Source: Lactiplantibacillus dongliensis
Lineage (GTDB): Bacteria; Bacillota; Bacilli; Lactobacillales; Lactobacillaceae
NCBI RefSeq assembly: GCF_005405105.1
Contig: NZ_BJDK01000035.1
Coordinates: 1 to 36,646 of the forward strand
Direction: 5' to 3'
DNA: 36,646 nucleotides
The position numbers and the translations under genes were made by a program. Below are positions 4,529 to 34,338 of this stretch, in pieces. The notes beneath the pieces were generated by a model, which did not search any database, had not been told where the DNA came from, and saw nothing but the letters and a program-made list of their open reading frames with translations. Position 1 is the stretch's first letter, and each line of letters opens with the position of its first letter.

Positions 4529-4903
4529 ATGGCAGCCGAAAATCATGTGCAGGCTAAGGCAGAGTTGTTGCGTCAGTATCAAGAAATTGTTTCGAAGTAT
4601 ATGGATAATGTCTACGAAACGGTTGATGCCGATGCGCATTTTAAGTTAAAAAATCAGTTGGGCTTTAATTATTTTGTCGATTATTTATTCTTAGCGAATG
4701 TCTGTTATCAAGCAAGCTTAGATATTTTAAATAACGAAGATCAGAAGTATCCCGAGAGTAACGACCGGTTAGCGGCGGTGATTGTCAAGTATCCAGAATA
4801 TTTGACAATGGCGGTCTTTAACGCCGACTTTCAAGATGCTAGCGTGACTGATCATTACGAAAAAACATTAGTTGATCTAGCTAGTACGCTAGACGTTGAA
4901 TAA
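4529..4903 (+). CDS. Hypothetical protein, 124 aa
   Basis: This is an acidic soluble protein with Tyr- and Asp-rich helices (YMDNVYETVDADAHFK, LDILNNEDQKYPESNDRL). It shows no signal peptide, membrane segment or known motif. ATG 4529 is preceded by AGGTGGGGATT. The gene is 32 bp after the Imm-5-like gene and 61 bp before mutY on the same strand, so co-transcription is likely. I do not recognise the family. Confidence 0.75.
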   Translation: MAAENHVQAKAELLRQYQEIVSKYMDNVYETVDADAHFKLKNQLGFNYFVDYLFLANVCYQASLDILNNEDQKYPESNDRLAAVIVKYPEYLTMAVFNADFQDASVTDHYEKTLVDLASTLDVE

Positions 4904-4964: not shown

Positions 4965-6065
4965 TTGATTGAATGGTCACCCGCAACAATTAGCGCCTTT
5001 CAGACGACGTTACTGGCCTGGTTTGATCGCGAAGGTCGCGATTTGCCATGGCGTCATGATCATGAACCGTATCATATCTGGGTCTCAGAGATCATGCTCC
5101 AACAGACACAAGTTCAGACGGTTATCCCATACTACGAGCGTTTCATGGCGTGGTTTCCAACGGTGACGGCCTTAGCTCAGGCCCCCGAGAGTCAACTGCT
5201 AAAGGCTTGGGAAGGCTTAGGGTATTATTCCCGGGTGCGCAACATGCAACGCTGTGCGCGCCAATTATTGGCGGATTATGAGGGTCAGTGGCCCAAGACT
5301 GCCACTGAACTCACGGAATTGATTGGTATTGGCCCGTATACAGCGGGAGCGATTGCTAGTATTGCCTTTAATGAACCAGTCCCGGCTGTCGATGGGAATG
5401 CGTTTCGGGTCTTTAGTCGGTTATTAGAGATTGACGCTGATATTGCCAAGCCGCAGACCCGGTCGTTATTTGAAAAAGTGATTGCGCGGATTATCCCTAA
5501 AGATCGGCCGGGAGATTTTAACCAAGCAATTATGGATCTCGGTTCTAGTTATATGACCGCCCGTAATCCTGATTCGGCCCATTCGCCGGTCAAGGACTTC
5601 AACCAGGCTTATCTGGATGGCAAAGAATTAGATTATCCCGTCAAGACGAAGAAGCCGCGGCCAGTCCCAGTTGATTATGTGGCGGTCTTGGCACAAGCTG
5701 ACGGGCAATGGTTAATGACGCAACGGCCTAGTAATGGCATGTTAGCGAACTTATGGACAGTACCATTGCTGAAAGTAGCGGACCTAGATTTAGCTGAAGA
5801 TTACTTGCCAGCTGATCTAGAATTAGCGATTCAAACGTATTTCCAACAAGAGTATCAATTGCGCGTCACTGGTTTTGATCTGGGCTTAAAGCCAGTTAAA
5901 CATACATTTACGCATCAAAAGTGGACGATTCAGTTATTCGGTGCCAAGGTTGAACAGCCAGACCTAGCTTACTTTCCAGGTAAACTTGTGTCGACGGCGC
6001 AACTGACAACACTACCGATGCCTAAAGTGCAAGAAAAGATATGGGATCGTTACCAACCAAAATAA
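4965..6065 (+). CDS. mutY: A/G-specific adenine DNA glycosylase MutY (cluster-less form)
   Basis: MutY removes adenine mispaired with 8-oxoguanine. The 366-aa protein has the HhH-GPD glycosylase core: catalytic Glu42 in SEIMLQQTQ, a helix-hairpin-helix at ~117-135 (LIGIGPYTAGAIASIAF), and catalytic Asp143 in VDGNAFRV. A C-terminal NUDIX-like 8-oxoG recognition domain (~230-360) carries HTFTHQKW in place of the FSH motif. The four cysteines that normally bind [4Fe-4S] in the C-x6-C-x2-C-x5-C pattern are replaced at the aligned positions by Met197, Ser204, Ser207 and Asn213, so no cluster can form. Cluster-independent MutY proteins are known from Lactobacillales and other low-iron bacteria. The start is TTG 4965, behind a perfect AGGAGGAA; no better start exists. 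A strong terminator follows. Confidence 0.97.
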   Translation: MIEWSPATISAFQTTLLAWFDREGRDLPWRHDHEPYHIWVSEIMLQQTQVQTVIPYYERFMAWFPTVTALAQAPESQLLKAWEGLGYYSRVRNMQRCARQLLADYEGQWPKTATELTELIGIGPYTAGAIASIAFNEPVPAVDGNAFRVFSRLLEIDADIAKPQTRSLFEKVIARIIPKDRPGDFNQAIMDLGSSYMTARNPDSAHSPVKDFNQAYLDGKELDYPVKTKKPRPVPVDYVAVLAQADGQWLMTQRPSNGMLANLWTVPLLKVADLDLAEDYLPADLELAIQTYFQQEYQLRVTGFDLGLKPVKHTFTHQKWTIQLFGAKVEQPDLAYFPGKLVSTAQLTTLPMPKVQEKIWDRYQPK

Positions 6066-6115
6066 AGCACGTGTTTCAAAGCTTGATCGACTTTGAAACG
6101 CGTGCTTTATTTTGG
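6061..6115 (+). terminator. Terminator of mutY
   Basis: Long arms of ~21 bp (AATAAAGCACG... with ...CGTGCTTTATT) enclose a short loop, with one internal mismatch and a closing T-run. It begins within the mutY stop. Confidence 0.9.
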
Positions 6116-29064: not shown

Positions 29065-29595
29065 CTAACGGTATTTTTTAAGTCGAATCAGTGCCTGAAT
29101 ACCAATGATGATACCCATAAAGGCGCCGGTCCAAATGCCAGTCCAAATATAATGCCATTGTGTTAATGTGTGAAGTAAGTTAGTGCCATCAAAGTAATGG
29201 TCTAGTAGGGTAGTTTGAAAATAAAACCATAGTCCAGTGTAAACGGCACCGAAGCTCATCTTTTGCCTAATGTGCAAGTAGGCTTGTTTGAGATCATGGG
29301 TAGTTACTTCAGTATCGGTAATGTGGGCACGGTGTGAGGCAAGTAGAACGTAGGGGCAAATGACTAACATGAAGTAGCCAACTTGAAGTGAAATAACAAT
29401 GTTGATGGCATCCTGTGGACGATTGGCAACAGTCAATCCAGCGACAAACAGTGAAATGAAGCTGAACGGTAGCAAAAGCATAAAAGCGTTAGTGCCAATC
29501 CGATTCGCTTCTTGACGTTTATATTCATCAAAAGTTCCAGAAATACCAAACCAGTGTTTGACGATCGTATCACGTAAACTTTTTTTGCCTTCCAT
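29065..29595 (-). CDS. DUF3278 family membrane protein
   Basis: The 176-aa protein has about four hydrophobic segments and the DUF3278-type opening HWFGISGTFDEYKRQEANRIGTNAFMLL. Such proteins are common in lactobacilli directly downstream of a small Xre-type regulator, as here. ATG 29595 follows GGGAGGG, and the regulator's stop is 2 bp upstream, so the two are translationally linked. Role unknown. Confidence 0.85.
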   Translation of the reverse strand: MEGKKSLRDTIVKHWFGISGTFDEYKRQEANRIGTNAFMLLLPFSFISLFVAGLTVANRPQDAINIVISLQVGYFMLVICPYVLLASHRAHITDTEVTTHDLKQAYLHIRQKMSFGAVYTGLWFYFQTTLLDHYFDGTNLLHTLTQWHYIWTGIWTGAFMGIIIGIQALIRLKKYR

Positions 29596-29597
29596 GG

Positions 29598-29786
29598 TTA
29601 TCCCTCCCAAAACAAATGATTCAAATCTGTCTGTAAGACTCTGGCTAAGTGAATACAAAGATCCAGTGAAGGGTTATATTTGTCGTTTTCGATTAAATTA
29701 ATGGTTTGACGAGCAACGCCGATTTTTTGAGCGAGCTGAAATTGAGTCAGGTGGGACTGTTTACGATATTTTTTGACTTGATTCAA
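29598..29786 (-). CDS. Xre-family HTH regulator, 62 aa
   Basis: The protein is little more than an HTH_3 domain: QFQLAQKIGVARQTINLIEN (~17-36) followed by NPSLDLCIHLARVLQTDLNHLFW. It resembles the small YozG/YgzD-like regulators that accompany DUF3278 or similar membrane proteins. It overlaps nothing and precedes the DUF3278 gene by 2 bp, forming a two-gene operon it probably controls. Confidence 0.93.
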   Translation of the reverse strand: MNQVKKYRKQSHLTQFQLAQKIGVARQTINLIENDKYNPSLDLCIHLARVLQTDLNHLFWEG

Positions 29787-30017
29787 AGCAGGCCTTCCTT
29801 AATAGCAGCATTTCAGTCGCGCTTTATCGATTACGAGCTAGCGACTGATTTTGACGCCTAAAGTGTAGTACCTGATGTTCATGATGTCAATTATATATGA
29901 CACCATGAATTCACTAAATTACAATGTGTCTTGAATGAGATCTGTAGTAGGAGGGAGGGGAGACGACAAGTTGAACTAGTATCAGTCCTAGGCGTTTTGA
30001 AGCGGGCTTCTAAGCAC
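29787..30017. other. Spacer upstream of the Xre gene
   Basis: It holds the promoter side of the Xre operon, including TGATGTCAATTATATATGACA, an imperfect TGTCA-type palindrome near 29890-29905 that could be the regulator's site. The remainder up to the ncRNA terminator is unassigned. Confidence 0.35.
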
Positions 30018-30680
30018 AAAAAAATAGAACCCAAGGCTTCTCAACTTGAGTTCTACTTATGAGGAATAACCACCGTTAACAAGATTACGTTGTTCAGTGT
30101 TCTTAATGCGTTACACCTTCATACTATTCAATTTTACGTGTGTCCAACTTCTAACGGACTAACCCGTACTTATTGTATCTATCTGCTTTAGTCGATCAAA
30201 AGTAAATCCTTACTTGATTCGTGACTCTTCAAACGGGTTTTAACGAAAGTCGAACTCGCGTTTATAACTTGGTAATGTCTTCGTAACAGACATGCACCTC
30301 CGTTTAAACTTTTAATGCCTAAGCCTACAATGGAACTGGTACTGATGGTACTTAAATCTCAGGAACCATGGTACTAGTGGAACTTAAATCTGGTCATCGG
30401 CGACACCTGTTTCCAACTCTTAAAGTTAAATCTAGATAGTCTTGATAACACCAATTAAAACGTGACGCGGTTACCGTTTATTCAAGGATCAACGTTCAGC
30501 CATCCAACGCAAATCTCCCGACACTCGCTGGACCGATAACGTTAAGCAATGCCTGAACTGGTCTCGGTAACGACCATAACCTGTGGTACTTAGATGTCTA
30601 ACGTGTTGGCGACATCTATCAAACTCTTTATTGAGAAGCTTGCTAACGAGGTTGTAATTCCTTTCCTCACTTAGTATACT
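30018..30680 (-). ncRNA. Candidate large structured noncoding RNA, ~650 nt
   Basis: A minus-strand transcript is predicted from about 30,668 to 30,018. It starts behind TAGTAT (30680-30675) with TTGCAA 18 bp upstream and ends at a U-tailed terminator (TAGAACTCAAG / CTTGGGTTCTA, 30055-30025, then seven T). Its ends pair: TGAGGAA (30669-30663) with TTCCTCA (30066-30060), and GTTAGCAAG (30647-30639) with CTTGTTAAC (30083-30075, one G-U). Many local hairpins lie between, e.g. AGATGTC/GACATCT, ATGTCT/AGACAT, GTCC/GGAC inside TACG/CGTA, and AGTC/GACT around TCAAGTAA..TTACTTTTGA. No frame inside has a plausible ribosome site. Layout resembles GOLLD/ROOL-type RNAs; class membership is not established. 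Confidence 0.7.
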
Positions 30681-30688
30681 AACAGGTT

Positions 30689-30704
30689 TTGTAAGCGGTT
30701 GCAA
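30689..30704. promoter_or_regulatory. cre-like site over the -35 of the ncRNA
   Basis: TTGTAAGCGGTTGCAA matches the relaxed CcpA consensus WTGNAANCGNWNNCAW at every position. Its right end is the TTGCAA -35 of the minus-strand promoter, so CcpA should repress. Confidence 0.7.
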
Positions 30705-30860
30705 TAGAAAGACCCTACTTTTTTTAATTGACTTAACATTTTTTTGAAAAGGCTGATGTATCAGTGCTTTTGACGGGTTAAAGTCCTTGAGAAGGTGGGA
30801 GAGTTGGGAATAAAAGTCAGTATCTCGCAACTAGTAGTAGATTTCAAATTAAGATCTATT

Positions 30861-31020
30861 GAGCGCAGGGCGGGCTGGATGATGTTTAGTGGTGTCGTTT
30901 GACTTAGACCGGGTGGTTGTTCCGACCTTAGTCAAAGCCCGGCTTTTGAGACCGGTCCATGGCTCAAAAACGCGGCTACCACGTTTCAGCATCAATCCAG
31001 CCCAACCGCAGCGGCAAATC
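30861..31020 (+). repeat. Cloverleaf repeat, full copy (GGCTGGATGATG subtype)
   Basis: Outer stem GGGCTGGATGATGTT / AGCATCAATCCAGCCC; P2 TTTGACTTAG / CTTAGTCAAA extended by a CCGG/CCG part; P3 TTTTGAG / CTCAAAA around ACCGGTCCATGG; P4 AACGCGG-CTA-CCACGTT. It is closest to 15926-16087 and lies between the ncRNA promoter and the pflA terminator. Confidence 0.9.
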
Positions 31021-34243: not shown

Positions 34244-34300
34244 TTGTTTCGCCTCCATAATTAAAATCCAATTGGATTATATAAAAACTTTTACAATTGA

Positions 34301-34338
34301 ATCATACCATATTTAAGCGATATTGTAAGCGATTCCAT
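34301..34338 (-). promoter_or_regulatory. pflB promoter with cre site
   Basis: Minus-strand -35 TTACAA (34328-34323), 16 bp, -10 TATGAT (34306-34301). TTGTAAGCGATTCCAT (34323-34338) fits WTGNAANCGNWNNCAW exactly and covers the -35. Confidence 0.8.

Follow-up and report, generated by a model that had tools for sequence, protein, structure and literature searches.

The RNA gene and its promoter

The window analyzed here is a 36,646-nt stretch of Lactiplantibacillus dongliensis DNA (NCBI RefSeq assembly GCF_005405105.1, contig NZ_BJDK01000035.1, positions 1 to 36,646). Its minus strand carries a predicted non-coding RNA gene of about 650 nt beside pflBA, with a putative cre site on the -35 box; a cre site in the promoter is a feature of the CcpA regulon. 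The elements of the gene are collected in Table 1. The minus-strand promoter and the U-tailed terminator about 650 nt later, on which the original prediction was built, lie where they had been placed, but the most telling features, the cre site and a pseudoknot to the terminator loop, had been overlooked.

Table 1. Features of the predicted RNA gene in the window
Feature	Position	Strand	Basis or remark
cre site TTGCAACCGCTTACAA	30689..30704	minus	overlaps -35 hexamer TTGCAA 30704-30699
Extended -10: TG 30684-30683, TAGTAT 30681-30676	30676..30684	minus	17-nt spacer to TTGCAA
Predicted RNA, ~653 nt	30018..30670	minus	start G30670, end at U-run
P1 5' strand TGAGGAA	30663..30669	minus	pair probabilities; P1 kept in relatives
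P2 5' strand CGTTAGCAAG	30639..30648	minus	pair probabilities; covariation test
Pseudoknot 5' strand CTTCTCAA	30631..30638	minus	CTTCTC invariant in 21 genus sequences; complements terminator loop
Variable middle domain	30467..30617	minus	counterpart sits in 174-nt tandem unit of L. herbarum
GGAGGTGCATG motif, then AUG in hairpin	30291..30301	minus	GGAGGTG kept in genus RNAs
Conserved 3' core motifs AAAATTGAATA (30135-30125), TGAAGGTGTAA (30121-30111)	30111..30135	minus	motif test
P2 3' strand CTTGTTAACG	30074..30083	minus	pair probabilities; covariation test
P1 3' strand TTCCTCA	30060..30066	minus	pair probabilities; P1 kept in relatives
Intrinsic terminator: stem 30055-30045/30035-30025, U-run 30024-30018	30018..30055	minus	sequence and pair probabilities
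Terminator loop TTGAGAAGC, pseudoknot 3' strand	30036..30044	minus	at least 6 Watson-Crick pairs in 20/21 genus RNAs

The site TTGCAACCGCTTACAA, which matches on both strands, is taken to be a full match to the CcpA operator (cre) consensus, and the cre pattern WTGNAANCGNWNNCWW gave 8 matches at 6 places in the window against 0.43 expected. In alignment A1 of 21 sequences from the genus, which were selected without regard to the promoter, the columns TTG.AA.CG.TT.C of the cre site and TG.TA of the extended -10 element are unvaried. The terminator hairpin has 11 bp, a 9-nt loop and seven U; it was absent from the output of a simple terminator scan of the window because that scan allows loops of 3-8 nt.

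Several other elements of the window were recorded. A second cre match, again on both strands, lies at 34323-34338 just upstream of the pflB start at 34258, and therefore pflBA itself is probably under CcpA too. Downstream of the RNA, the minus strand encodes an XRE-like regulator (judged by eye) of 62 aa (29598-29786) and a 197-aa protein with membrane-like segments (29065-29658). The sole Rfam match in the window at the gathering score is a purine riboswitch aptamer (RF00167, 20069-20167, plus strand, 72.2 bits).

Predicted fold

The ends of the RNA are predicted to be joined by two nested helices, P1 and P2, exactly as had been proposed from the window, with high pair probabilities (0.75-0.98 for P1 and 0.84-0.93 for P2, compared with 0.6-1.0 for the terminator stem) and with compensatory changes across lineages, as detailed below. 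In P2, GTTAGCAAG (30647-30639) pairs with CTTGTTAAC (30083-30075) with one G-U pair, and the helix reaches 10 bp once C30648-G30074 is added. The minimum free energy of the whole RNA is -171 kcal/mol versus a mean of -155.8 for shuffled sequences (z -2.25), and 0 of 20 shuffles folded as well. Furthermore, the segment GCUUCUCAA (30639-30631), at and just inside P2, has its reverse complement in the terminator loop, UUGAGAAGC (30044-30036), which would allow a pseudoknot between the 5' arm and the terminator; its constant part is the six pairs CUUCUC/GAGAAG, and the 9-nt loop need not form all nine.

A direct repeat of about 25 nt had also been pointed out, and a near-repeat, AGATTTAAGT, does occur twice in the window, but this duplication is found in alignment A1 only in the window and in its 99%-identical sister G017 and is therefore rejected as a family feature. 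A tandem-repeat search reported none.

Conservation and covariation

Matches to the RNA were found in all 21 genomes of the genus that were searched, including a single match in the own genome, and the best pieces in the 20 others are 75-99% identical. Alignment A1 yielded a consensus of 134 pairs, 19 of which have both sides changed in some sequence. A tree-based covariation test was carried out with 20 of these RNAs, L. herbarum being omitted because of its repeats, and 4 of 173 proposed pairs, located in four helices, reached E<=0.05 (0.05 expected); one of them is the P2 pair 24-596, which covaries between A-U and G-C (E 0.036). The proposed pairs are favoured here, since the structures had been derived from the very alignments under test. 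No pair reached significance in the same test among 123 in Levilactobacillus or among 103 in a mixed alignment of Lactiplantibacillus, Pediococcus and plasmid RNAs, and when no structure was proposed, none of the three sets yielded a significant pair. Homologues and covariation had been suggested as the check on the original prediction; they reveal compensated changes in both end helices, with statistically significant pairs in the genus only.

Relatives across Lactobacillaceae

Beyond the genus, matches are present in 11 of 12 genomes assigned to Pediococcus (the missing genome is 76% complete) and in 35 of 35 assigned to Levilactobacillus, of which BLAST reached one genome each through the promoter and first bases. 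Distinct RNAs that could be read through to a terminator number 11 in Pediococcus and 23 in Levilactobacillus. In the latter (e.g., L023, ~1517-955, minus strand), the promoter and closing helices are kept, and the terminator loops are variable and are not GAGAAG. A pattern scan of named genomes gave 43 matches, 36 of them in Lactobacillaceae, including L. brevis, P. pentosaceus and P. acidilactici; the 7 outside this family were excluded from the members. In two Erysipelotrichaceae loci (L094, ~6042-6077, and L129, ~4599-4634), a cre-like promoter is followed by a GGAAACCGGAAAGG...GTTTCC hairpin, and these two elements resemble each other and differ from the window RNA.

Two sequence models extended the search. 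R1, a model of the 158-nt 3' core without base pairs, matched the genera g42 (5 genomes) and g51 (2 genomes); four of the five g42 loci and both g51 loci were fetched, and those read carry the cre promoter, end helices and pseudoknot. Weak R1 matches in two further genera (G204 and G151) lack such a promoter and were dropped, and R1 misses the seven Levilactobacillus loci as well as the plasmid locus that had been supplied to it. R2, a 60-nt promoter/start model, matched 262 of 397 genomes of the family and 156 of 395 of the order; because R2 contains the cre site, many of its weak matches are probably plain cre promoters. The 20 R2 matches with E<=3.4e-6 that were fetched and checked represent 12 Lactobacillaceae genera and two other families. 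One of these loci, f5g28 (L206), has neither P1 nor the pseudoknot, and P1 of g39 (L203) fails at six pairs. In all, checked members are found in 13 Lactobacillaceae genera beyond the first three, 12 with P1 and g39 with the pseudoknot only. Literature searches listed no description of this RNA in Lactobacillaceae.

In total, 95 RNAs from 19 lineages were collected, including 19 of the 20 fetched R2 loci (the twentieth, L205, is counted as L211, the same place). Helices were counted in the 92 with a called terminator, which leaves out one RNA each from g3, g14 and the enterococcal set. Starts outside Lactiplantibacillus were set 33 nt after the promoter TTG or by pattern, and the invariance of the cre site there is partly built in, since many of these promoters were picked by the promoter pattern. 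At least six Watson-Crick pairs form P1 in 90 of 92 RNAs and 17 of 19 lineages, versus 19.8% after shuffling of the 5' end, and the pseudoknot in 57 of 92 RNAs, versus 4.6% after shuffling of the 5' segment. Related sequences are not independent, and lineage counts therefore weigh more than RNA counts; by lineage, the pseudoknot is present in 10 of 19, a single Levilactobacillus case being set aside. It is missing in Levilactobacillus (1/23, probably by chance) and in eight other lineages. When ends were swapped between lineages, with other terminator settings and four loci omitted, own ends paired better than the swap mean in 17 of 18 cases for P1 and 15 of 18 for P2; for the pseudoknot, the core of which is common to many, the figure was only 10 of 18.

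The terminator-loop pseudoknot varies with compensation in several lineages: GCUUCUCAA/UUGAGAAGC in Lactiplantibacillus, ACUUCUCAA/UUGAGAAGU in the plasmid form, CUUCUCAAAG/CUUUGAGAAG in some Pediococcus, GCCUUCUC/GAGAAGGC in g42, CUCCUCAG/CUGAGGAG in g51 and UUCUCGCAA/UUGCGAGAA in g11. Among the 25 P1 strings and the 17 pseudoknot strings recorded, some are contained within others.

Coding potential and the GGAGGTG motif

No minus-strand ORF of at least 30 aa lies wholly inside the predicted transcript; two frames cross its ends (113 aa from 30830 and 47 aa from 30034). The earlier judgment that there is no credible ORF extends to the relatives, in which none is conserved either. One candidate is a 17-codon frame (MSVTKT..S.KRE.DFR) starting at GGAGGTGCATG, for which the remainder of the RNA would be a structured leader and tail. 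In 19 of 21 Lactiplantibacillus RNAs this frame begins with ATG or GTG and is uninterrupted; the other two lack a base of the start codon and, by eye, would continue in the same frame from CTG. However, its amino acids change at many codons, the spacer is 3 nt and no such peptide was seen by eye in Pediococcus, g42 or g51, which makes a small-protein mRNA a most improbable reading.

The heptamer GGAGGTG within GGAGGTGCATG presumably complements the 16S anti-Shine-Dalgarno sequence. All 21 Lactiplantibacillus RNAs have it, as do those of five further genera (g42 4/4, g51 3/3, g13 2/2, g11 1/1 and g39 1/1). Because GGAGGUG-AUG is kept and the peptide behind it, by eye, is not, a ribosome-directed role is conceivable, in which the GGAGGUG-yAUG hairpin would mimic a translation start whose spacer is too short and hold the 30S subunit in starved cells; the molecule would then serve for storage or as a decoy and not as an antisense regulator. 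The enterococcal RNA Ern0160, discussed below, forms a second gradient peak in fractions 8-10 and has no assigned protein partner (PMC12870237), and the 30S peak in these gradients lies near fraction 10 (PMC10117718). On the other hand, GGAGGTG is found in 0 of 11 Pediococcus RNAs (GGAGGT in 7), 0 of 23 Levilactobacillus RNAs and 0 of 13 RNAs of the enterococcal set, part of the motif can pair locally, and one 16S 3'-end pattern gave 0 matches in the own genome. Overall, this role appears unlikely.

Size, tandem modules and genomic neighbours

The shortest RNA by called length is one g3 form, with 262 nt, and the longest is that of L. herbarum, with 1098 nt. The L. herbarum RNA has 4.0 copies of a 174-nt unit, in a stretch that includes ten N, and a 69-nt unit is present in 5.7 copies in L147 of g51. 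Tandem Repeats Finder and a direct-repeat search reported no array in the Pediococcus locus L036, where repeats are visible by eye, and two Lactiplantibacillus genomes (G001 and G002) have no match over about 110 nt of the RNA middle. These modules, together with the size, end pairing and loop complementarity, would also suit a self-assembling RNA, in which arm/loop pairing and repeated middle domains act between molecules to form homo-oligomers, as described for OLE, ROOL and GOLLD (PMC12286853). However, the pseudoknot could form just as well inside a single molecule, no similarity to Rfam families was found, and lengths of 262-1098 nt suit a fixed cage poorly; self-assembly of this kind is thus regarded as quite doubtful.

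Short forms are also found on plasmids. One copy lies near an Hsp20 gene in L. plantarum NZ_CP048925.1, and two L. brevis plasmids from wheat beer carry identical copies (L221 and L222, ~1770-2100) with, by eye, a similar promoter, helices and pseudoknot; in L222 this form is about 1.3 kb from mobQ.

Neighbouring genes were compared in loci with limited flanks. In 4 of 11 parsed Lactiplantibacillus loci the RNA adjoins pflBA, and elsewhere it has other neighbours. A neighbour protein of about 140-230 aa is common to 6 of 11 Lactiplantibacillus loci and to 5 of the 6 from Pediococcus, pointing to a single ancestral position in these two genera; Levilactobacillus has different neighbour genes. 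Because neighbours vary between and within lineages, the RNA is probably not a leader or other cis element of pfl. A Cro/CI-type gene also adjoins E. faecalis Ref19C (PMC3166299). The 197-aa gene of the window is present in only 2 of 11 Lactiplantibacillus loci, and the likeness of the XRE-like regulator to the Ref19C neighbourhood is therefore probably a coincidence.

Probable relation to the enterococcal RNAs Ref19C and Ern0160

Among the related loci, only the fetched locus L205 has any Rfam match, namely to RF02639 (EF0869_EF0870, also called Ref19C or sRNA_0869; 44.4 bits, E 1.1e-8, cut-off 533 bits), and this match begins at the predicted start base. A search with RF02639 alone found matches in 14 of 15 genomes of one genus, taken here to be enterococcal, none above the cut-off, and in 0 of 14 control genomes. 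R2, which was built without these RF02639 relatives, has a hit in 14 of 14 at the site expected for the promoter, ahead of RF02639 position 1 (E<=0.0015), and position 1 falls in them on the base equivalent to G30670, which supports the predicted start. P1 and the pseudoknot (UCUCGA/UCGAGA with extensions) are present in 13 of 13 relatives with a called terminator, and P2 comprises 11-16 pairs, including G-U, in the ten RNAs examined. In the window RNA, the RF02639 relatives and the E. faecalis consensus, P1/P2 bring the two ends together immediately ahead of the terminator.

The inner sequences cannot be aligned: core model R1 matches 0 of 24 loci L187-L210, and RF02639 gave no match to window positions 29700-31000 at E<=10 (gathering score 533 bits). 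Short motifs were sought in 34 RNAs with two mismatches allowed, and, with motifs partly drawn from the sequences tested, GGTAGGYYAGAA was found in 16 versus 3.8 in shuffled sequences, AAAATTGAATA in 29 versus 13.8, TGARGGTGTAA in 18 versus 9.9 and GGAGGTGYATG in 12 versus 5.2; for 20 fetched loci, stretches of 1100 nt or to the locus end were used, which can overrun the terminator.

The proposed link to Ref19C and Ern0160 thus draws on the promoter, helices, pseudoknot and short motifs. We hold with good confidence that the window RNA and Ref19C share common descent; the shared promoter, end helices and terminator-loop pseudoknot point to what is probably one family, the enterococcal branch of which is already known. 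In E. faecalis, a Northern signal for this RNA was reported specifically after 24 h of starvation (PMC3166299). Ern0160 of E. faecium, 362-370 nt in length, is 24% identical and partly homologous to Ref19C, belongs to the core genome, accumulates during growth and is described as having no ORF; it pairs with and represses two LysM mRNAs, and carbohydrate genes are among those most reduced on its overexpression (PMC12870237). The available text of PMC3166299 and PMC12870237 mentions no Lactobacillaceae counterpart, and that of PMC12870237 does not mention CcpA, nor that of PMC3166299 catabolite control.

Proposed function and significance

On this basis, the window RNA is probably a CcpA-repressed, trans-acting starvation RNA of a Lactobacillales family that includes Ref19C and Ern0160. 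As judged from the position of the cre site over the -35 box, CcpA would block the promoter when glucose is plentiful, and upon carbon exhaustion the repression would be lifted and the RNA could accumulate. P1 and P2 would pair the ends and the 5' arm would hook onto its own terminator loop, giving a stable, nuclease-protected molecule. The RNA may then act in trans on other RNAs by base pairing and thereby reduce the output of cell-envelope and carbohydrate genes. Of the conceivable modes, antisense action has the best support, since it was demonstrated for the relative Ern0160. The sequences themselves show the gene structure, its conservation, the compensated helices and pseudoknot, and the cre site; for L. 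dongliensis, we infer that the RNA is transcribed, repressed by CcpA, made in stationary phase, stable and active in trans.

A broader view, which we offer as a rather unlikely speculation, would be that ornate RNAs of about 260-1100 nt, usually one per chromosome, occur throughout Lactobacillales, are induced by sugar exhaustion, lock the 5' arm on the loop of their terminator, either in the same molecule or in another, enlarge through tandem duplication of internal domains and, in starved cells, retain 30S subunits or form RNA particles.

The proposed family would connect an RNA without annotation, present in common food and probiotic bacteria such as L. plantarum, Pediococcus and L. brevis, with two RNAs of enterococci that have each been investigated in a single species, and would provide all of them with the same anatomy and the same switch, CcpA. 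Tandem growth of internal domains illustrates one way for a large RNA to gain size, and the terminator-loop pseudoknot is a directly testable feature. As a harmless and tractable host, L. plantarum lends itself to work on the role of such RNAs.

Comparison with known RNAs

Like the window RNA, the 14 RF02639 relatives have one match per genome and a cre/extended -10 promoter at the same distance to the start. In contrast, the relatives are 376-398 nt long to the U-run and the E. faecalis RNA is 474 nt, compared with 650 nt here; overall sequence similarity is not detectable, the GGAGGTG motif is absent, and the E. faecalis RF02639 consensus has, by eye, no obvious terminator-loop pairing. Ern0160 is likened to the window RNA by its published description, and targets of it are known only in E. 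faecium. The original suggestion of a large ornate RNA, perhaps of a new class, stands insofar as the RNA is large, end-paired and without an Rfam family, and its newness is qualified by the Ref19C relatives.

Rfam models gave only three hits over 29700-31000 at E<=10, all to eukaryotic families on the other strand and below the cut-offs; a comparison with Rfam had been advised from the outset, and neither ROOL nor GOLLD matched at the gathering score or at E<=10, so that membership in these or other Rfam families was rejected. ROOL (including the lncRNA of L. salivarius) and GOLLD resemble the window RNA in being large and structured and in occurring in Lactobacillales among others (PMC12286853, PMC5643018). 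Unlike them, the window RNA has no model match and no tRNA or phage match nearby, and it has a cre promoter. The window contains 0 tRNAs, no phage record matched, and the promoter pattern was found in 0 viral contigs; a phage origin was accordingly rejected, and the earlier view that this is not a prophage RNA beside tRNAs is borne out.

The L. plantarum supermotifs (LPSM) are likewise large, intergenic structured elements of the same genus, but they are described as occurring in many copies of 800-1000 nt and in L. plantarum only (cited in PMC5643018), whereas the window RNA has one match in its own genome and is present in many genera. Membership in the LPSM was discarded on these grounds.

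No match to 6S RNA, which is about 200 nt long, was found in the window. The 6S RNA of lactic acid bacteria nevertheless offers a likeness in its promoter, since a cre site lies on the -35 region in about a third of these species and has been read as probably inhibitory (PMC8414754), an arrangement comparable to that of the window RNA gene.
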